Positions 54,251-64,000 of a stretch of DNA of 64,000 bases are shown piece after piece. The stretch is from Sphingomonas sp. GTDB lineage: Bacteria; Pseudomonadota; Alphaproteobacteria; Sphingomonadales; Sphingomonadaceae. The position numbers were made by a program, and so were the translations under genes. The notes beneath the pieces were generated by a model. That model was not told the origin of the DNA and did not search any database. It saw only the letters and a program-made list of their open reading frames with translations. The stretch is taken from NCBI RefSeq assembly GCF_025353885.1, contig NZ_JANXNX010000082.1, forward strand, positions 1-64,000, in the 5' to 3' direction. The stretch's first letter is position 1. Each line of letters begins with the position of its first letter.

Positions 54251-56659
54251 TCAGCGCCCCTGCGGCCGCGAAGACGGCTCAGCGGTGATTGCGGCACGGC
54301 CGACCGCCTGGCAATCGCGGTCGTCGGTTGCCCGAAACGGGAGCGCCCCGCACCCTGTCGGCCCGCCATACAGCCATCCCGAACCCATATAGCCGACGTA
54401 GACGCGGCCGAAAATGTTCTTGTCCCCCTCGATCACGATCACTTGGTCGAGCCGACCCATCGGGAATTTCCCGACCTGTTGCCAGCTGTCGGCATTGTCG
54501 GTCGATCGCCAGATCGCATAGGCCCCGCCGACGCGGCCGGAGATGAATATCGTCGGATAGTGCGCCTGCGGGGCGGCCTTACCAAAGGCGATATCGTCGA
54601 CGCGATCGATGTTTTCGAGCGTAGTCCAGGTGGCACCGCCGTTGACAGAGCGTCGCAGTCGGGTGTCGGGGCCATAGCTGACGCCTGAGGTAAAGAACAA
54701 ATTTCCCGCAACGCCGGGAACGGCGCGCAGCTTTGCCGCCTCATGACTATGCGGCGCAATCTCGCCCTCGAACACGCGCTGCCACGATCCGCCGCCATCG
54801 GTCGTTCGCCAAAGGCCGGTCAGCGCCGAATTGGCGCCCCCGCCACTGTGCACGAGATAGAATGTCGCGGCATCGACGCGGTCCGCCGCCAGTGTCTTGC
54901 GACCCCCATATAACTTCTCATAGGATCCGGTCAGCGGCAGTTTTTCGCCGGGAAGCGAGACCCGGGTCCAGCTGAGCCCTCGATTGCGGGTGAAAAAGGG
55001 CGAGCGGTTGAACGCGGGTGCCCAGACGATGTTCTTCGTGTCGTTGGCGGATACTGCAATCGTGCCGAACGACATGCGCCAAGGGTCATTAGCCCGGGTT
55101 CCCGGTGGCGTCGGCAAAGTGGCAAACTTGGTCCAGTTCTGGCCACCATCCAGACTGTAACCGGCAAGGATCGTATCGCCGTCCTCCGCACAGCATTGCC
55201 GTGCGTCGGAGGCATTCGTGACGATGAATGCCGGATCGGCTGCACTCCAATCGAGCTGCTGGGCGGAAATCAGCACCCGTGGTTTCGGGCCGAACGTCGT
55301 CGAAAAGCGGTCGAGATCGGGTTTCCGGTGGATCCCGAAATCCCATGCGGCAAACAATGGTGCCTGTCCCGGCGGGGCGATCACGTCGTTGGCGACCAGT
55401 TCCTCGATCCCCCGCGCCCGGATTTTCCAGTTGAGCGCCGAACAGCCGGTGCCGAGATCGGCAAAATAGGGGCCGACGCCTGCGGCGACCCACAGCCGGT
55501 TACGCACCACCGGATCGAAGGCGATCTGGCCGGAAGCGAAAAACGCGCCGTTGTTGACCTTCAGATATTGGGGTTCGCCGGGGCCGGTCGACGTGTTGCG
55601 ATAGGCGGCGGTCCAGCCAGCGCCGCCGTTGACCGAACACCATGCGCGACCGCCCATGTCGGTCAGGACGATCTGACTGCCCTGCGGATTGGCGGCAACC
55701 CCTGCAAAATCGGCGACCGGCAGCCCGTGGCCCGACAAGTCGGTCCATTTCCCGGCGCGTAACACCCAGGCTTTTTTGGCTTCCTGATCGATCACAAACA
55801 GGCTGCCATCGGCGGCGAAGCTGGTCTGGGCAATGGTGACGGGGCCGGGCGATCCCACCGGCGTGACGGGCCGGAACACGCCATCGGGCAATGCCATATA
55901 CAGGCCGTGGCCCGGAGACGCCGCATACAGTGGCGGCGGTTGCCTGTGGCCGGGTGAGGGGCCGAAACGGACCGTGATGGGTGGGCTCTGGATGCCGGAG
56001 GCCGGGCGCAAGTCGGCACCGGGCGGGACCGAATCCACGTGCGTCCAACTGGCTGCGCCGTCGCTCGATTTCCACAAGCCGTCCTCGGCCGTCCCGAGAT
56101 AGAGCAGGTCAGGATCGACCGGGCTGACCGCCATGAACGCGCCATACAGGCGGAATTCGCTGTTGGCGTTGAACGGGTGGGGGAAGGGCGCCTTGCCCGA
56201 CCGTAGCTGCCATGAAGCCCCGCCATCATCCGACCGATAGACCCGCGCCATGATCGCCATGTAGATCCTGCGGGGATCACCCGGTGCCACGGCCACCTCG
56301 AACGCGCCCTGGTTCATGCCGTTCTGGGTGCGATCAAATGCCGGGACACTGGCGGCGCTGGCCAGCTGGACCCAGCGATCGGCCGAGACGTTCCAGATAT
56401 AGGCACCGTGGACGTCGGTGCGAACGACGCGCGTGGCCCCGGTCGCATCGGTCGCCATACCCGTGATGTAACCGCCGCCGCCAATCGCCACGGATCGCCA
56501 CAAATAGGCCTCGCCGGTGCTGGGTCCGTCGGCGGAGGTCGCTTTATCGGGGTCGGACGAGGCGTTTGCACAGGAGGCGGTGGCGAACAGGCCAAGCATC
56601 GTGCACGCCATTATCAATGAGCCCAAAAACTGGCCCAGAAACTTTTGAAAGTGCTGCAT
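54251..56659 (-). CDS. Exported beta-propeller protein resembling GH74 (xyloglucanase-like/BNR repeat)
   Basis: An 802-residue protein with a lipoprotein-like signal (LIMACTMLGLFATASC, Cys near residue 30). The mature part is a BNR/sialidase-type propeller: repeated SxDxGxxW units (RSDDGGASW, KSSDGAASW, LDGGQNW, RTTDGGGSW, SVNGGATW, RSTDNADSW). The start of the mature part, WRSVAIGGGGYITGM with VRTDVHGAYIWN, matches GH74 xyloglucanases, whose Asp in this RTDVxGAY motif (here D82) is catalytic. It may cut a glucan-backbone polymer. It is divergent from a flippase gene. Confidence 0.75.
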   Translation of the reverse strand: MQHFQKFLGQFLGSLIMACTMLGLFATASCANASSDPDKATSADGPSTGEAYLWRSVAIGGGGYITGMATDATGATRVVRTDVHGAYIWNVSADRWVQLASAASVPAFDRTQNGMNQGAFEVAVAPGDPRRIYMAIMARVYRSDDGGASWQLRSGKAPFPHPFNANSEFRLYGAFMAVSPVDPDLLYLGTAEDGLWKSSDGAASWTHVDSVPPGADLRPASGIQSPPITVRFGPSPGHRQPPPLYAASPGHGLYMALPDGVFRPVTPVGSPGPVTIAQTSFAADGSLFVIDQEAKKAWVLRAGKWTDLSGHGLPVADFAGVAANPQGSQIVLTDMGGRAWCSVNGGAGWTAAYRNTSTGPGEPQYLKVNNGAFFASGQIAFDPVVRNRLWVAAGVGPYFADLGTGCSALNWKIRARGIEELVANDVIAPPGQAPLFAAWDFGIHRKPDLDRFSTTFGPKPRVLISAQQLDWSAADPAFIVTNASDARQCCAEDGDTILAGYSLDGGQNWTKFATLPTPPGTRANDPWRMSFGTIAVSANDTKNIVWAPAFNRSPFFTRNRGLSWTRVSLPGEKLPLTGSYEKLYGGRKTLAADRVDAATFYLVHSGGGANSALTGLWRTTDGGGSWQRVFEGEIAPHSHEAAKLRAVPGVAGNLFFTSGVSYGPDTRLRRSVNGGATWTTLENIDRVDDIAFGKAAPQAHYPTIFISGRVGGAYAIWRSTDNADSWQQVGKFPMGRLDQVIVIEGDKNIFGRVYVGYMGSGWLYGGPTGCGALPFRATDDRDCQAVGRAAITAEPSSRPQGR

Positions 56660-56791: not shown

Positions 56792-58042
56792 TTGAGAAAA
56801 CTGGATTTGCCCTTTGCCAGCGCCGCGCGATATTCGCTGGCGATCCTTGGCCCGATCGGATCGGCGGGCGCGCAGTTCGCGCTGTCGCTCGTGCTGCTGC
56901 GCGTGCTCGACCAGGGTGGCTTCGGGCGGTTTTCGTTCCTGTTGGTGCTCTCGCAATTCACCTGGGGCATCTGGACGGCGTTGTTCTGCGCGCCGCTGCC
57001 GCTGCTGCTGTCGCAGGGGACGGGCGAAACCCGCGACCGGACCCGGCGCACCATCCAGAACGCCAGTCTGATCGGTGCCGTGGTGGCGCTGATCCTGTTC
57101 GGCGTCGTCGGGATGTTACTTGGCGAAGATTTCGGGGCGGCGGCGATCTTTGCCGCTTATGCCGCCATGTCGCTGTTGCGGTGGTTTGCCCGCGCCCACG
57201 CCTATGCCATCGGCGCGCAGGTCAGGACCACGATTTCGGACATGGTCTATGCCGCGACGGTGCTGATCGGGGCCGGGCTGTTACTGGTGTTCAAGTCGGA
57301 CGCGCTGTTGTCGGCCTGGGCGATTCTGTTTGCCGGGGCGACGCTGGGCATGATCCCGTTTGGCCGGACTTACCTGCGTGAACAGTTTTTGCAGGTCTCA
57401 CCCCGCGCGCTCGCCGACTATAGGCCTGTCTGGCGCGAACATTCCCGCTGGTCGCTGTTTGGCGTGGCGACGACCGAGGCGACCGCTAATGCGCATACCT
57501 ATTTCGTGATTCTGCTGATGGGGCCGACCGCGTTTGCCCCCATCGCGGCCAGCGCGCTGATCATCCGGCCGATCAACGTCGCGATGAACGCGCTGACCGA
57601 ATTCGAACGGGCGCAGATGGCGCGCCAGATCGGGGCGGGGCGGGTCGACCTGGCCCATCGCGCCGCCCGCTTTTTCCGGGCCGCGCTGGCGCTGGTCTGG
57701 CTGCTGACGGCGGTCGCGATCGTCGCGTTGTTCTACCGGGCACCGTCGCTGATCTTTCCACCGCAATACGACATCGGCGTGCTCGTCACCGGCGTCACGC
57801 TGTGGATGCTGGTCTCGGCGATCCGGGCGATGCGCACGCCGGAAAGCGCGCTGCTGCAGGCGGCGGGGGCGTTCCAGCCGTTGGCCCGGGCGAGCCTGTG
57901 GTCCTCCATCGTGTCGATCGTCGCGGTGCTGGCGCTGTTGATGCTGGGCCAGCCGCTGTGGTCGATCGTCGGCATCCTGTTCGGGGAGGCGGTCTTTGCG
58001 GCGCTGACCTGGCGTGCGGTGCGGGTGTGCTTCAGGCCCTGA
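56792..58042 (+). CDS. Polysaccharide flippase/transporter (Wzx/MOP family)
   Basis: About 416 residues with around 12 hydrophobic segments; the MOP-superfamily pattern is seen in FPASAARYSLAILGPIG-like start and LRVLDQGGFGRFSFLLVLS. It would flip undecaprenyl-linked repeat units across the inner membrane. The start is uncertain: TTG at 56792 (RKLDLPFAS) has AAGGG 13 bases upstream; the longer frame upstream is not family-like. Its 3' end overlaps the convergent glycosyltransferase gene by 11 bases. It is one of two flippase genes here. Confidence 0.78.
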   Translation: MRKLDLPFASAARYSLAILGPIGSAGAQFALSLVLLRVLDQGGFGRFSFLLVLSQFTWGIWTALFCAPLPLLLSQGTGETRDRTRRTIQNASLIGAVVALILFGVVGMLLGEDFGAAAIFAAYAAMSLLRWFARAHAYAIGAQVRTTISDMVYAATVLIGAGLLLVFKSDALLSAWAILFAGATLGMIPFGRTYLREQFLQVSPRALADYRPVWREHSRWSLFGVATTEATANAHTYFVILLMGPTAFAPIAASALIIRPINVAMNALTEFERAQMARQIGAGRVDLAHRAARFFRAALALVWLLTAVAIVALFYRAPSLIFPPQYDIGVLVTGVTLWMLVSAIRAMRTPESALLQAAGAFQPLARASLWSSIVSIVAVLALLMLGQPLWSIVGILFGEAVFAALTWRAVRVCFRP

Positions 58043-59102
58043 GGCATTCGCGCAGGGCGGCGTCCAGCGCCTGCAAACATTGCGACCAGTCGAAGTCGGC
58101 GCGGACCCGCTGGGAGATGTCGTTGCCGCGTCGCCGGATGTCGGCGATGACTAGCCCGGCGATCCATTCGGCGGTATCCTCGACAGGCCGCTCGGGGCCG
58201 ACGACATGGCCGTCATAGGTCGCGACCATGCTGCGCGCACCGGCGAGGTCGAGGCAGACCGGAACGACCCCGCAGGCCATCGCCTCCAGTACGATCAGCG
58301 GATAGGAATCGATCCGCGACAGATGGATCAGGACATCCGACCGCTGGAGCGCAACGACCATCTGCGGCATCGACTTCGGACCGGGCACGGTGACATGGTC
58401 CGCCAGCTGGTGCCGGGCGATCCGGTCGTGAAGCGCGGCGTTGGTCACAGCGTCGGCGGGACCAACGATCTCGGCCGAAAACACCAGCCCCGCGTCGCGG
58501 AGCGCGGCGCACACGTCGACGACCAGGAAACTGCCCTTGCCCTCCGACAATCGGCTGGCGTGGATCAGGCGCAACTGCGCGGGGTCCTTCGCGAGCGGAT
58601 CGGGCCGCGCCGCCAGCATTTCGGCTGGCAGAAAGGTGATGATCCGCGAGCGAGGGACACTGGCGGGCAGATTCAGTTCGCCTTCCTGCGTGGCCGACAG
58701 CAGGGCGAAGCGGCTGGCATGGCGCAGCGCCCACCCGCTGAGGCGTCGCAGGACCGGGCTGGATTGCGATTTCCAGTTCGAACCGAGGTGCGGCGTCACC
58801 ATCACGCGCATCCCGAGCAGGCGGGCGACGATCAGATAGGCAAGGTCGGGCAGGTTCACATAGTGCAGCCAGATGCAATCGGGGCGATCACGGCGCTGGC
58901 CGATCAGGGCGGCAATGCCGCGCAGGTACAGCGCCAGCGTGCCGAGCGACAGATAGGCACTGCTGGTCATGATGCGCGTCACCTGCCAGTGGCCATCCCG
59001 CGCAAGCGCCGCGCTGGCACGGTCGCAAAATGCCTCGACCCCGCCCGTATGCGCCGACGATCCGCCCAGCATGACCAGGCGTAGTGTATTGGCACCGGCC
59101 AC
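58032..59102 (-). CDS. Glycosyltransferase family 4 protein
   Basis: About 356 residues with two Rossmann-like halves of the GT-B fold. The N-terminal part starts RLVMLGGSSAHTGGVEAF. The C-terminal donor site has RLSEGKGSFLVVD and the GT4 motif SRIDSYPLIVLEAMACGVVPVCLD, where the Glu positions bind the sugar nucleotide. It would add one sugar to a lipid-linked repeat. The GTG at 59102, one base after the upstream stop, is used; an ATG at 59072 is possible. Confidence 0.85.
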   Translation of the reverse strand: MAGANTLRLVMLGGSSAHTGGVEAFCDRASAALARDGHWQVTRIMTSSAYLSLGTLALYLRGIAALIGQRRDRPDCIWLHYVNLPDLAYLIVARLLGMRVMVTPHLGSNWKSQSSPVLRRLSGWALRHASRFALLSATQEGELNLPASVPRSRIITFLPAEMLAARPDPLAKDPAQLRLIHASRLSEGKGSFLVVDVCAALRDAGLVFSAEIVGPADAVTNAALHDRIARHQLADHVTVPGPKSMPQMVVALQRSDVLIHLSRIDSYPLIVLEAMACGVVPVCLDLAGARSMVATYDGHVVGPERPVEDTAEWIAGLVIADIRRRGNDISQRVRADFDWSQCLQALDAALRECLRA

Positions 59103-59103
59103 G

Positions 59104-60423
59104 TCAGCGCGCCCGGGTTGCGGTGTTGCCAAACAGTCGATTGTCACCCTGGCCCCGGCGCGGGGTGGCCCGGGTGATCGTCCACAGCAGCGCAATCGTC
59201 ATCATCAGGAACACCTCGACGAGGGTATCGCGATCGAAAATGCTTGATTCGGTGACGTTGTGCGCGATGCAGAACATGAACACGCCCAGGATCAGCGCTC
59301 CACGCGGTCCCTGGGCAAGGGGACTCGCCAGCAATCGGACCAGCGGATAGACGATGACCGCGCCGACGACGAGCAGCAACCCGGGCACGCCGGTTTGCGA
59401 CACGACGTCCAGATAGCCGTTGTGCCCCTGCGTGACCGTCAGCACCCATCCGTTCGAATACTGATAGATCGGGCTGGCGGCCCCGATGTTCCAGAACGAA
59501 CCATAGCCCGATCCCGTCCAGGGATGGTCGGAAGCGTAGCTGGCAAGCGCCGACCAGATCCGTGTCCGCCCTGTCAGCGCGGTCGGATCGTTCAGATGCT
59601 GTAGCAGCGGATCGTTATAGACCCCCACCAGGACCGCCACGACGATCGCCAGCAAGAAAATCGTCGACAGGACGAACACGCGATACCGCGCGCTGTAGAA
59701 CTGAAAGACCGCCGCCAGCCCGATCGCGAAGGCGCACAAGGCCAGCGACGTCTTCGATTCGGTCTTGAACAGGAAGAACGCGGCCAGCGCGATGACGACG
59801 GCGCGCAGCGCCTTCGGGATCCGTTTGGCATCAAAAGTGAACACGATAATCGTGATCGCGCATACCGATCCGACCAAGTTCTTTTGCAACATGAATCCGC
59901 GCCAGTCGCCGATTAGGGCCTTGTCATACGGTTCGTTCGCCTGATGGATACCAATCTGCGGAAACATCAGGACGGTCAGGAAATTGACGAGCAGCGCGAT
60001 AACGAAGGCGATGCGCAGGACAAGCATGACCTGTTGGTAGCCAAGCTGGCGGACAACGGCGAAAATCGTCCAGATGATGATGGTGGTCAGCAGCACCCGG
60101 CGCAGGCTGATCGCGGGGTCGATCGCCCACCCCAGGCTCAACCAGCACCACGCCAGGGTGATCACAATGCCAATCGGCACGCACAGCACCCGATCAAGGC
60201 TGTCGAGCGGGCGGATCGCGTAGAGCGCCATCAGCGCGATGACAATATAGCCGATCTGGCGGATCGGGCTGCCCTCGCCCGTCACGCCTGCCGAATCGAC
60301 GACCGTCATTGCCGGACCCAGCAGCGTCAGCGAAATCAGCGCCACCAGCGTCGCCAGCAGGAACTGGCGACGGGGCAATCCCGAGCGTCCTGAACGCTTG
60401 GCGGTGAACATGTCCGCCATCAT
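59104..60423 (-). CDS. O-antigen ligase/polymerase family membrane protein (Wzy-like)
   Basis: A 439-residue polytopic protein with about 11 hydrophobic segments. It carries the family's large periplasmic loop with HPWTGSGYGSFWNIG and TVTQGHNGYLDVVSQTGVPG, the RX10G/HX10G-like region of Wzy/WaaL. By context it is more likely the exopolysaccharide polymerase than an O-antigen ligase, since no lipopolysaccharide core genes are near. The next gene is a GT4 glycosyltransferase one base away, so both are one operon. Confidence 0.83.
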   Translation of the reverse strand: MMADMFTAKRSGRSGLPRRQFLLATLVALISLTLLGPAMTVVDSAGVTGEGSPIRQIGYIVIALMALYAIRPLDSLDRVLCVPIGIVITLAWCWLSLGWAIDPAISLRRVLLTTIIIWTIFAVVRQLGYQQVMLVLRIAFVIALLVNFLTVLMFPQIGIHQANEPYDKALIGDWRGFMLQKNLVGSVCAITIIVFTFDAKRIPKALRAVVIALAAFFLFKTESKTSLALCAFAIGLAAVFQFYSARYRVFVLSTIFLLAIVVAVLVGVYNDPLLQHLNDPTALTGRTRIWSALASYASDHPWTGSGYGSFWNIGAASPIYQYSNGWVLTVTQGHNGYLDVVSQTGVPGLLLVVGAVIVYPLVRLLASPLAQGPRGALILGVFMFCIAHNVTESSIFDRDTLVEVFLMMTIALLWTITRATPRRGQGDNRLFGNTATRAR

Positions 60424-60528
60424 GACCGTCGTTCACGCTGCGACGAGATGCAGAAATCTAGGCCCATATGTCTGTCGTCTGCCCCCGGCTGCCTGATGTC
60501 ATGTTGGTAATGCATCCCGATCGTCAAT

Positions 60529-60539
60529 GCCATAATGGC
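60529..60539. promoter_or_regulatory. GCCATAATGGC palindrome between divergent polymerase and ugd
   Basis: A perfect 11-base palindrome in the 261-base gap between the divergently transcribed polymerase and ugd genes. No other clear signal is seen in this gap. It is placed where a shared operator for the polysaccharide genes could be; assignment to a specific regulator is not possible by eye. Confidence 0.35.
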
Positions 60540-60684
60540 GTGCAGGCCATCCGCGGTTTTTCCAGGGATGTTTCGCCGGATTTTGCCCGGCTCTAGTGAA
60601 AACCGTTGAACATTAAGCGCATCTCGTCGATGGATTGCCGGCGCAAGGCGTAAAGCCATCAACGATGATCGAAGCGAGGCGACT

Positions 60685-61998
60685 ATGAAGATAGCGATGA
60701 TTGGTGCTGGTTACGTGGGCTTGGTGTCGGGAGCATGTTTCGCCGATTTCGGACATTCGGTAATCTGTGTCGACCTCGATCAATCAAAGATCGACGCCCT
60801 GCATGCGGGCCGAATGCCCATTTTCGAACCCGGCCTTGCCGAACTGGTGCGGATCAACGTCGCGGCCGGTCGATTGAGTTTCACGACCGTGCTGGCCGAG
60901 GCTGCCGTCGATGCCGATGCCGTGTTCATTGCCGTCGGCACGCCGTCGCGCCGGGGTGACGGCCATGCCGACCTCACCTATGTTTTTCAGGCGGCGCGCA
61001 ACATTGCCGCTGCGGTCACCAAGCCGACCGTCATCGTTACGAAGTCGACGGTTCCGGTCGGGACCGGCGACGAGGTCGAGCGAATCCTGCGTGAAGTGGC
61101 GCCCGACATCGACTTGACCGTCGTCTCAAACCCCGAATTTCTGCGCGAAGGCGCCGCCATCGACGATTTCAAGCGGCCCGATCGCATCGTTATCGGTGCC
61201 AACGACGAACGCGCACGCAACGTCATGCGCGACGTTTATCGCCCCCTGTATCTCAATCAGTCGCCGCTGTTGTTCACCAGCAGGCGGACGGCTGAGCTGA
61301 CCAAATATGCGGCCAATGCATTCCTGGCGACCAAAATCACCTTCATTAACGAGATGGCGGATTTGTGCGAAGCCGTCGGCGCCGATGTCAGGGACGTCGC
61401 GCGCGGCATTGGCCTGGACAACCGGATCGGGTCGAAGTTCCTTCATGCCGGCCCCGGCTATGGCGGATCATGTTTTCCCAAGGACACGCTGGCCCTACTG
61501 AAGACCGCCGAGGATTTCGAGACGCCGATGCGCATTGTCGAGGCGGTGGTCCAGGTGAACGACGGACGCAAGCGCGCGATGGGGCGAAAGATCATCACCG
61601 CAATGGGTGGCGATGTTCGTGGCAAGACGGTCGGGCTGCTGGGACTGACGTTCAAGCCGAACACCGACGACATGCGCGATGCGCCCTCGCTGGCAATCGT
61701 GCAGGCCTTGCTCGACGCCGGGGCGACGGTGCGGGCGTTCGATCCCGAGGGCATGGCGACGGCGCGCGCGCTGATGCCCGACATCACCTATTGCGAGGGA
61801 CCCTATGCCGTGGCGGAGGGGGCCAGCGCGATTGCGATCGTGACCGAATGGAACGAGTTCAGGGCGCTGGACCTGGCACGCCTGACGGGGACGATGGTGG
61901 AAAAGCGGATCGTCGACCTGCGTAATCTGTACGATGCCGATGATTTGGCGCGGCTGGGTATTGCCTATGAGTGCGTCGGGCGTCCGACGCCACGTTAA
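60685..61998 (+). CDS. ugd: UDP-glucose 6-dehydrogenase
   Basis: A 437-residue NAD-dependent enzyme that oxidises UDP-glucose twice to UDP-glucuronate. The Rossmann motif GAGYVGLVSGACFA is at residues 7-20, the catalytic Cys is in GGSCFPKD (C263), and the central helix carries TAELTKYAANAFLATKI. It ends with a normal UDP-binding domain (GLTFKPNTDDMRDAPS). UDP-glucuronate would supply the split glycosyltransferase encoded next, consistent with a glucuronic acid-containing exopolysaccharide. Confidence 0.97.
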   Translation: MKIAMIGAGYVGLVSGACFADFGHSVICVDLDQSKIDALHAGRMPIFEPGLAELVRINVAAGRLSFTTVLAEAAVDADAVFIAVGTPSRRGDGHADLTYVFQAARNIAAAVTKPTVIVTKSTVPVGTGDEVERILREVAPDIDLTVVSNPEFLREGAAIDDFKRPDRIVIGANDERARNVMRDVYRPLYLNQSPLLFTSRRTAELTKYAANAFLATKITFINEMADLCEAVGADVRDVARGIGLDNRIGSKFLHAGPGYGGSCFPKDTLALLKTAEDFETPMRIVEAVVQVNDGRKRAMGRKIITAMGGDVRGKTVGLLGLTFKPNTDDMRDAPSLAIVQALLDAGATVRAFDPEGMATARALMPDITYCEGPYAVAEGASAIAIVTEWNEFRALDLARLTGTMVEKRIVDLRNLYDADDLARLGIAYECVGRPTPR

Positions 61999-62011
61999 GG
62001 GCGGTGGCGCG

Positions 62012-62063
62012 CCGACCTGATTCCTCAACGAGGAGGGTGGGTTCGGGTCGGCGATCAGGTCGG
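62012..62063. repeat. Inverted repeat between convergent ugd and pssD-like gene
   Basis: Ten-base arms ccgacctgat (62012-62021) and atcaggtcgg (62054-62063) around a 32-base spacer, in the 70-base gap between two convergent stops. It could help end transcription from both sides. No T run follows either arm. Confidence 0.6.
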
Positions 62064-62068
62064 GCGGA

Positions 62069-62545
62069 TTACAGCAGGCGACCTTCGAACAGCAGCCGCG
62101 GCGGCTGCGCGAGATGTTCCCACTGCGTGATCGATAGTGTGGAAAACGACTGCGCCAGCTTTCCGCTGAAGGACAGTTGTTCGGAATTCGCAACACTGTC
62201 GATCCAGATTGTCTTGGCACCATTCCAGCGACCGGCGACGAGACAGAGCAGGCCCGGCAGCGCGCCGGTGGTGATGATGAAGTCGGGCTTTGCGCCCCGG
62301 ACAATCGACCAGGCGGCAAAGAAGCATCGGATCAGTTGGAGCGGACGGTTTCGGTTAGCATCGGGCAGGACCAGAACGTCGTCGATCCCGGCGCGCACGC
62401 CAAGTTCGGGATCGGTCGTTGCAAAGCTGACCTGAAAATTCTCGAACGCCGGGCGCAGGAGCATCAACTGCTCCCAATGGCCCCCCTTGGATGCCACAGC
62501 GAGCAGTTTTATCTTTTTAGCTTGGGTGTCGACCGGCGGGAGCAC
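62069..62545 (-). CDS. PssD/Alg14-like glycosyltransferase subunit, copy 2
   Basis: A 158-residue protein of the Alg14/PssD family, the half-enzyme that binds acceptor and membrane while its partner (Alg13/PssE type) binds the sugar nucleotide. Motifs: SKGGHWEQLM, the DFIITTGALPGLL strand-helix, and AKTIWIDSVANSE. It is closely similar to the other PssD-like gene at 63016-63483. GTG at 62545 directly abuts the stop of the PssE-like gene (TGA-GTG), so the two are translationally linked. Confidence 0.85.
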   Translation of the reverse strand: MLPPVDTQAKKIKLLAVASKGGHWEQLMLLRPAFENFQVSFATTDPELGVRAGIDDVLVLPDANRNRPLQLIRCFFAAWSIVRGAKPDFIITTGALPGLLCLVAGRWNGAKTIWIDSVANSEQLSFSGKLAQSFSTLSITQWEHLAQPPRLLFEGRLL

Positions 62546-63019
62546 TCAATTAGCTTCTATGAATTTTACGATGGCTTCGCGAAGGCGGATGCGACTTGGA
62601 ATTTCGATGCTCTCGTCAGGGGGCAGCAGGGGCTGGCCCAGTAACGCGATCAGTTCGGCGTCGGTGCGCGCGATATAGACGCCCTGCCGTCCCTCCAGCG
62701 AACCGATCGTCGCCATCTGGTGATCGTTGCGGTGTTCCTTCAAAGCGGCGCGGCGCGGGAACAGGATGACCGGCTTGCGATATTTCTGAGCGATCACCAC
62801 CGTCCCAACCCCGGCGTGCGATACGATGCAGGTTGCCCGCGACAGTATTTCATCGAATTCGGAAGGCCGCAGCATCTTTTGCCATTCCATGTTCTTAGGC
62901 TCGTAGCTGCCGTAACCAGTCTGGGCGAAAATCGGCGTCCCGATACCGGGCGCGGCTTCATCCACGATCTTTACGAATCGGTCGAACGGCAATTGCGTGC
63001 CAACTGTCAGCAGGATCAT
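62546..63019 (-). CDS. PssE/Alg13-like glycosyltransferase catalytic subunit
   Basis: A 157-residue protein of the Alg13/PssE (GT28 C-terminal half) type. It carries MILLTVGTQLPFDRF at the N-terminus and the sugar-nucleotide site SHAGVGTVVIAQKYRKPVILFPR (in parts), with NDHQ toward the end. In Rhizobium leguminosarum PssD and PssE together transfer glucuronic acid to make a glucuronosyl beta-1,4 link; here the same pair may use UDP-glucuronate from ugd. It is flanked by two PssD-like genes. Confidence 0.88.
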   Translation of the reverse strand: MILLTVGTQLPFDRFVKIVDEAAPGIGTPIFAQTGYGSYEPKNMEWQKMLRPSEFDEILSRATCIVSHAGVGTVVIAQKYRKPVILFPRRAALKEHRNDHQMATIGSLEGRQGVYIARTDAELIALLGQPLLPPDESIEIPSRIRLREAIVKFIEAN

Positions 63020-63483
63020 AGCAACGCTCCATCGTAGCGGGGGCCCGATGGCTTAGCCAGATGTTCCCACTGGGTAAGCCATAACGACGAAAACCAGCGC
63101 GCGCAGGCTCCGCTCATCGAAGATCTGTCGGAATTGGCGATACTGTCGATCCAGATCGTCTTGGCGCCCATCAGTCGCCCGACCACGACGCAGAACAGGC
63201 CAGGCAAGGCGCCAGTGGTAATGATGAAGTCAGGGTTTGCCTGACGAACGATCGACCAGGACCGCCACAGGCAGTAAAGCGCGCGGATCGGCTGGTTACG
63301 GTTCGAGTCAGGCAAAAGGTAGATGCGGTTGATGCCTTCGCGAATTGCGAGGTCGTAATTTGTCGTTGCATATTCCACCTCGAACCCCGCGAAAGCGGGA
63401 CGCAACAGCATTAACTCTTCCCAGTGACCACCGGGCGAGGCCACCGCGAGCAACTTTATTTGGTCAGTTCTTGATCTTTTCAT
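63016..63483 (-). CDS. PssD/Alg14-like glycosyltransferase subunit, copy 1
   Basis: A 155-residue Alg14/PssD-family protein, with SPGGHWEELM, DFIITTGALPGLFC and AKTIWIDSIANSD. It is the first gene of the trio; its stop overlaps the PssE-like start by four bases (ATGA). By eye more than half its residues match the copy 2 protein, strongly over the two core motifs, with more differences in the middle (residues 35-75). A fast-diverging duplicate with a different acceptor is one explanation. Confidence 0.85.
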   Translation of the reverse strand: MKRSRTDQIKLLAVASPGGHWEELMLLRPAFAGFEVEYATTNYDLAIREGINRIYLLPDSNRNQPIRALYCLWRSWSIVRQANPDFIITTGALPGLFCVVVGRLMGAKTIWIDSIANSDRSSMSGACARWFSSLWLTQWEHLAKPSGPRYDGALL

Positions 63484-63677
63484 GAGCCGAAAAATCGCTT
63501 TCGCTTAATCGTACGCGTCCCCCAGCGAAGCGTCCGGCCATCCTGATGTATAACTGTTTCGTTAGCATTCGATTAGCAATAATTTGCCCCTGACATGATT
63601 TGCAGTTCGTCGCAACTGTGGCTCGCTTTATCGCCGCGAACTTGATCCGAAATGGAGCAGGTTATCCGTAAATACGG

Positions 63678-63708
63678 TTGACCCTGAAAAAGGATGCATT
63701 CTTATAGT
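63678..63708 (+). promoter_or_regulatory. Sigma70-type promoter for the right-edge flippase
   Basis: TTGACC (63678-63683) and TTATAG (63702-63707) are 18 bases apart, close to the consensus -35 and -10. The expected start of transcription is near 63714, about 45 bases before the flippase start used here. The TGCAACGCAACAT motif overlaps the region from -10 onward. Confidence 0.6.
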
Positions 63709-63720
63709 GCAACGCAACAT
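63708..63720 (+). promoter_or_regulatory. TGCAACGCAACAT operator candidate over the flippase promoter
   Basis: This 13-base site matches the pattern TGCARYGCAACAT found twice before phaP. It overlaps the likely transcription start, a position suited to repression. The common regulator is not identified. Confidence 0.45.
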
Positions 63721-63758
63721 TTTTCCTTATGGTCCTCGGGAATAATGAATGGATCGGC

Positions 63759-64000
63759 ATGGCCGTCAACAAGCGCCTTGTAACCAATATCGCCTCGATG
63801 ACCTTGTGGCAGGTCGGCAATTATCTGGTGCCTCTGCTGACATACCCATTTTTGACGCGCGTCCTCGACGTGCGAGGCTATGGCCAGTTCACGTTCAGTT
63901 TCGGAATCATCGCCTATTTCGTGCTGATTACCGATTGGGGCTTCGGCATGAGCGCCAGTGCCGAAGTGGCTCAGAACCGGGACGATCCCGCCCGCATATC
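63759..64000 (+). CDS. Polysaccharide flippase Wzx-like, N-terminal part (cut by window edge)
   Basis: The frame stays open to the end of the window with about 80 codons. It begins MAVNKRLVTNIASMTLWQVGNYL and continues LLTYPFLTRVLDVRGYGQFTF, a typical start for oligosaccharide flippases of the PST/Wzx family, and is membrane-embedded throughout. The ATG at 63759 has GGATC upstream; an in-frame ATG at 63729 is possible. The neighbouring PssD-PssE-PssD trio is divergent from it. Confidence 0.82.
   Translation, partial: MAVNKRLVTNIASMTLWQVGNYLVPLLTYPFLTRVLDVRGYGQFTFSFGIIAYFVLITDWGFGMSASAEVAQNRDDPARI

Follow-up and report, generated by a model that had tools for sequence, protein, structure and literature searches.

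Most glycosyltransferases carry their donor and acceptor sites in one polypeptide. In the EpsE/EpsF and Alg14/Alg13 systems a MurG-like architecture is split over two proteins, with a GGH loop and a complex formed via the C-termini, and in its accessible parts PMC8993221 describes these enzymes as pairs or simple fusions. According to the same portions of that article, the complex is built from the last three residues of Alg14, which help to bind Alg13 (PMC8993221, citing Gao 2008), and a C-terminal helix of Alg13. The histidine of the GGH loop proved essential in Agl24, an archaeal homologue, and EpsE/EpsF relatives transfer glucose or galactose. In R. leguminosarum the same two halves are encoded by overlapping genes of an exopolysaccharide cluster (PMC9961541, PMC1403797). 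There, as far as the accessible text goes, PssD and PssE act together as the glucuronosyltransferase for the first glucuronate, the second being the task of another enzyme, PssC (PMC1403797). The open literature on split glycosyltransferases yielded no precedent for two acceptor halves per catalytic half, and no such system appears in the accessible portions of PMC9961541, PMC8945535, PMC4973528, PMC8993221 and PMC1403797; a precedent may exist in subscription journals.

Organization of the D-E-D Locus

The DNA analyzed here is a 64,000-nt stretch from Sphingomonas sp. (the window). Unlike the R. leguminosarum locus, it has two genes for the acceptor half (D) per gene for the catalytic half (E). 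All three frames are intact and lie on the minus strand in the order D1, E, D2. D1 (63016..63483, 155 aa, ATG start) and D2 (62069..62545, 158 aa, GTG start) encode putative PssD/Alg14-like acceptor halves, and E (62546..63019, 157 aa) encodes a putative PssE/Alg13-like donor-binding catalytic half. The D1 stop overlaps the E start in an ATGA at 63016-63019, and D2 begins with its GTG (62545-62543) directly after the TGA that ends E (62548-62546). Both D proteins contain the motifs SxGGHWExLM (SPGGHWEELM in one, SKGGHWEQLM in the other), TTGALPGL and AKTIWIDS. Gene order, coordinates, the two junctions (ATGA at 63016-63019, TGA-GTG at 62545-62548) and the motifs are therefore as the first-pass annotation had described them. 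Pairwise alignment, which it had proposed as a check, showed that D1 and D2 are homologous, with 60% identity over 152 residues; since the E-value was 7e-70 in a single comparison, the match is not due to chance.

Judging from gene spacing and overlap, D1, E and D2 would be carried on one transcript. A scan of positions 60400-64000 gave a single promoter-like site, on the minus strand at 63769-63742 (shuffled mean 1.8), and a single terminator-like site, located within ugd (shuffled mean 3.5); the scan found none at the end of the trio. D2 is separated from the end of ugd by only 70 bases. Between the two gene ends lies an inverted repeat (62010..62066, arms 62010-62021 and 62054-62066), which is a possible shared transcription end; it has no T run and was not called by the terminator scan. 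The fold of 61995-62075 reached -27.8 kcal/mol (z -3.57), and 0/200 shuffles were as good.

Family Assignment and Predicted Fold

Against the NCBIfam PssD model (NF041549, cut-off 110) D1 and D2 scored 77.4 and 73.3 bits, and E scored 80.7 bits against PssE (NF041548, cut-off 120). Because these scores are below the cut-offs, the three proteins are not filed as PssD/PssE equivalogs, and we class D1 and D2 as PssD-like and E as PssE-like. In Pfam, D2 matched Alg14 (PF08660) with 28.1 bits, above the gathering cut-off of 27, and D1 came just under it with 25.4 bits, while E matched Glyco_tran_28_C (PF04101), the Alg13 side, with 36.8 bits (gathering cut-off 22). D and E also correspond to the first and second half, respectively, of the WelK-type beta-1,4-glucuronosyltransferase model NF046028, with scores of 58.9 (D1), 60.3 (D2) and 73.4 bits (E) that are all below the cut-off of 400; this model, however, covers a single 319-position chain that includes only one acceptor half. 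A PDB sequence search matched E to yeast ALG13 at 1.9e-5 and found no relative of D (best E-value 0.45, unrelated proteins).

The structure of D2, the only D modelled, was predicted with a pLDDT of 93.6. Its best structural match was the N-terminal half of MurG (Z 17.6, rmsd 1.9, 136 residues aligned), the aligned part of the P. aeruginosa MurG chain (331 residues) being residues 3-162. Four MurG entries gave Z of 16.7-17.6, and the next family 14.6. MurG differs in being a single chain that serves peptidoglycan synthesis; its other half has no counterpart in the D2 model, so E would supply it. Family membership, together with the fold of the D2 model, supports the earlier view of D1 and D2 as acceptor-type halves and of E as the catalytic, donor-binding one.

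A PssD-like copy lacking conserved residues would, according to the first-pass annotation, have refuted its proposal. We compared D1 and D2 at the 23 positions that are conserved at ≥ 90% in 133 other D sequences, and each keeps 23/23, GGH loop included; the 133 sequences themselves comprise 90 with no position lost, 31 with one, 11 with two and 1 with four lost. Two hydrophobic residues end 153 of 156 D sequences (frames ending near the domain), a pattern that the C-termini of D1 (ALL) and D2 (RLL) both fit. Reading of the sequences by eye revealed no obvious N-terminal membrane helix in D1 or D2, and their putative role as membrane partners is assigned by homology. Taken with the selection acting on the D genes of a related trio, which is where the selection test was run, rather than on D1 and D2 of the window, the signatures, the C-termini and the D2 model make both D1 and D2 look functional.

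These features bear on the idea that the three proteins form one heterotrimer, either a D1-E enzyme with D2 as a structural or regulatory subunit or an assembly in which D1, D2 and E add two sugars per visit. Tight linkage of D1, E and D2 is consistent with such a complex, and so is the occurrence of D-D in one frame at three planctomycete loci (see below). A purely structural subunit, however, would have no need of the full set of conserved positions, GGH loop included, that D2 keeps, and D2 contrasts here with a lone D of another genome (G226, L070), in which the GGH motif has lost its H and the G before it. We consider the heterotrimer quite improbable.

Distribution of D and E Genes

To place the trio among related loci, D was searched at E-value ≤ 1e-15 and E places were taken at E-value ≤ 1e-12 in 397 genomes of the family. 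D was carried by 55 of them in 57 places, which comprised 53 single D-E pairs, two lone D genes and the window trio. Among 80 named-genome loci (the best 80 of 112 relatives) 70 were D-E; there were also two D-E-D, three D-D-E and three D-E-D-E tandems (L087, L109 and L113), one D-E with a split E frame and one D near a contig end. The pair is thus the usual arrangement, as had been claimed. In the genus of S. ginsenosidimutans D was present in 41 of 295 genomes, and only S. ginsenosidimutans and S. adhaesiva had two D genes close together; one further genome (G437) had two far apart. All these survey counts are lower bounds, a limited number of first-look candidates having been scored per genome, and the two genome samples may overlap. 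Neither the genome surveys nor the literature searched, in its accessible parts, disclosed a common fixed trio with known biochemistry, the circumstance that the first-pass annotation had raised against its own proposal.

The genome of the window (117 contigs, 98.2% complete) has two D genes, found by a search with D1, and one E match in a profile search at E-value ≤ 0.001. That search revealed no second E, although one could be missing, given the number of contigs and the completeness. Might D2 use another catalytic partner, encoded elsewhere? Lone D genes do exist in the family survey, one on contig 27 of G226 and one in G228, where D and E lie ~9 kb apart. Yet at E-value ≤ 0.001 the profile search left E as the only candidate partner in the genome, and D2 abuts it, which makes a different partner very unlikely. 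Even less probable, in our estimate the least so of all the readings considered, is that D2 is the decaying remnant of a D-E-D-E tandem; such tandems are known at the three loci named above, but the D2 frame is intact with no conserved position lost, the 70 bases up to the end of ugd are all that follow it, and the D2 of the related trio is under purifying selection.

Two minor observations may be added. The lone D of G226 (L070:4553-4999), situated away from the D-E pair of that genome, has an incomplete GGH motif, the second G and the H being gone, and misses 5 of the 23 conserved positions; it is possibly decaying or repurposed. In viral contigs there were 10 pattern matches, of which tblastn showed none to be a relative.

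Related Trio in S. ginsenosidimutans and S. adhaesiva

The D-E-D loci of S. ginsenosidimutans and S. adhaesiva lie inside a cluster that is syntenic with that of the window. Common to the three clusters are a DUF1972 GT4 with 65% identity, which resembles the rhamnosyltransferase Cps2T (166.6 bits against the Cps2T model, cut-off 500), a second GT4, GT4b (62-63%), a hexapeptide acyltransferase (74%), a heparinase-like protein (55%) and a flippase (46-47%, with 46% in S. ginsenosidimutans), as well as a partial third GT4 (62-68%) at the edge of the compared stretch. In all three the trio and the glycosyltransferase run point away from each other. Among the 295 genomes only S. ginsenosidimutans and S. 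adhaesiva have GT4b at 63-64%, with three more at 37-51%, and in 387 family genomes besides the window's own none has it at that level, the next match being at 33%. In the genomes sampled the trio therefore goes with one polysaccharide pathway.

Comparison of S. ginsenosidimutans with S. adhaesiva gave dN/dS of 0.034 for D1 and 0.062 for D2, which indicates that both D genes are kept in the related trio. The E stop of S. ginsenosidimutans shares bases with a GTG of the D2 frame (GTGA), a coupling similar to the E/D2 junction of the window. We found no ugd in the 20 kb around the S. ginsenosidimutans or the S. adhaesiva trio. In the S. adhaesiva assembly (L077:4444-4907) E is split over two overlapping frames and both D genes are open; the split is either an assembly error or a real change.

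History of the Two D Genes

Both D genes of the window fall in one clade with D1 of the other trio (100/99 in the 144-row tree, 99/96 in the 48-row tree), and D2 of the other trio lies outside it, with D of G107 (96/74; 97/79). Within the clade the trees differ on D2 of the window: the 144-row tree puts it outside a group made up of D1 and 13 others, and the 48-row tree puts it weakly with D1 of the other trio (81/74). A clade of the window's D1 and D2 was not rejected (AU 0.367); joining the window's D2 to D2 of the other trio was at the edge of rejection (AU 0.0501), and so was a clade of the other trio's D1 and D2 (AU 0.0584). When the E of S. adhaesiva, whose frame is split, was omitted, the E tree joined the genes of the window and S. 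ginsenosidimutans as sisters (96/82).

A count of columns in the four D sequences gave 9 that group D1 with D2 within each genome, 1 that groups D1 with D1 and D2 with D2, and 2 that group them crosswise, a distribution suggestive of gene conversion or of separate origins. Six of the 9 within-genome columns, however, are I/V or K/R exchanges, and the direction of 5 of these 6 is the one that would be favored in S. ginsenosidimutans, whose genes have the higher G+C. Third-position identity along D1/D2 ranges from 0.35 to 0.60, and since no tract is sharply identical, no recent gene conversion is seen. The sister E genes and the syntenic clusters favor one trio origin. The trio would either be ancient, with D2 changed since, or have arisen twice.

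The same comparisons allow an assessment of whether D1 and D2 are redundant after duplication, that is, both pair with E and serve the same acceptor, the second copy being perhaps a matter of dosage or of different conditions. The closest relative of D2 is indeed D1 (61%), and a common clade of the two was not rejected; D1 for its part matches D of G090 equally well (61%). Yet identity has fallen to ~60% and synonymous sites are near saturation (pS 0.66), so the D1/D2 split is old, and the two D genes of the other trio are only 52% alike and are nevertheless both conserved. We regard redundancy as unlikely, though it deserves to be kept in mind.

Genomic Neighborhood and Proposed Function

Next to the trio, ugd (60685..61998, plus strand) encodes a protein of the UDP-glucose dehydrogenase type with Pfam UDPG_MGDP_dh domains; it is above the cut-off of NCBIfam NDP-sugDHase and, with 496 bits, below that of TuaD (700). 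Its product would supply UDP-glucuronate. On the other side the start of a gene for a Wzx-type flippase (63729..64000, plus strand; L063:3729-5039; Pfam Polysacc_synt, 160.8 bits) is divergent from D1 and leads a glycosyltransferase run beyond the window. On the minus strand are genes for a Wzy/O-antigen-ligase-type polymerase (59104..60423; Pfam Wzy_C, 66.7 bits) and a GT4-type glycosyltransferase (58032..59195; Pfam Glycos_transf_1, 66.8 bits), and the cluster has in addition rmlA-, rmlB- and rmlD-like genes and several glycosyltransferase genes.

The reading that we put forward, with evenly balanced confidence, is that E is a donor half shared by the paralogous D1 and D2, giving two transferases with one donor and different acceptors. 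In what would be a split glycosyltransferase of the MurG/Alg14-13 type, D1 and D2 would bind the acceptors, and E would form one enzyme with D1 and another with D2. Assembly of one polysaccharide repeat unit would then involve different lipid-linked acceptors for D1-E and D2-E and a common nucleotide-sugar donor that is most likely UDP-glucuronate; the difference in acceptors is suggested by the presence of two D genes. In favor of this reading are the single E found against two D genes in the genome, the conserved positions and C-termini of both D proteins, the MurG-like D2 model, the recurrence of the trio in a syntenic cluster where both D genes are under purifying selection, and the planctomycete parallel (see below). 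Weighing against it are the PssD and PssE scores under the cut-offs, the split E frame of S. adhaesiva and a second E that the incomplete assembly may lack; D1 and D2 might also serve one function. They might divide between them the tasks of R. leguminosarum PssD/PssE and PssC, or similar ones.

Glucuronate is perhaps the donor. Kinship with WelK and PssD/PssE speaks for it, and the adjoining ugd is a suggestive hint; it is uncertain because EpsE/EpsF relatives use glucose or galactose and because plasmid relatives are annotated in some cases as glucuronosyltransferases and in others as GlcNAc transferases, and the 20 kb around each of the other two trios gave no ugd. If the shared-donor reading is true, an interchangeable acceptor half on a fixed catalytic half would show which part of the enzyme sets acceptor choice, and polysaccharide pathways could be rebuilt with the trio as an existing natural test system. 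A reason might also emerge for the persistence of the split form of these enzymes in many bacteria.

Two other genes of the region are worth recording. A heparinase II/III-like protein (L063:9127-11046; Pfam Hepar_II_III_C) is conserved in the related trio clusters and would fit a uronate-containing polymer. Positions 54251-56659 of the window encode a protein of 802 residues that narrowly passes the cut-off for Sortilin-Vps10; G437 encodes a 53% homologue of it at a distance of ~6.5 kb from a D-E pair (L219).

Two Acceptor Halves per Catalytic Half in Planctomycetota

At three planctomycete loci (L090:3992-5056, L128:3872-5041 and L132:3917-5044) two Alg14-like D domains occur in one stop-to-stop frame, which is followed by a separate PssE-like E. 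None of these D domains has lost more than one of the 23 positions (22 or 23 kept), and the genomes concerned have one (G399), one (G400) and three (G401) copies of E. A predicted model of the D-D fusion was poor (pLDDT 61.4 from 3 sequences) and was not used as evidence. In G791, whose genome has one E, the order D, D, E is also seen, each gene having a frame of its own; in the order sample D was carried by 42 of 201 genomes. A 2:1 ratio of D to E is present in two unrelated phyla with different gene order. We tentatively entertain, while leaning against it, the wider proposition that E of the window serves D1 and D2 in a shared-subunit glycosyltransferase placing the same sugar at two places, and that the 2:1 ratio arose separately in Planctomycetota, where the fused D-D is perhaps a two-step enzyme.

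D-E fusions and one E-D fusion exist among the relatives, so the family is plastic in general. At one locus (L209:512-2435) a D is followed by an E-D fusion in one frame and then by an E, the order of the fusion being reversed.
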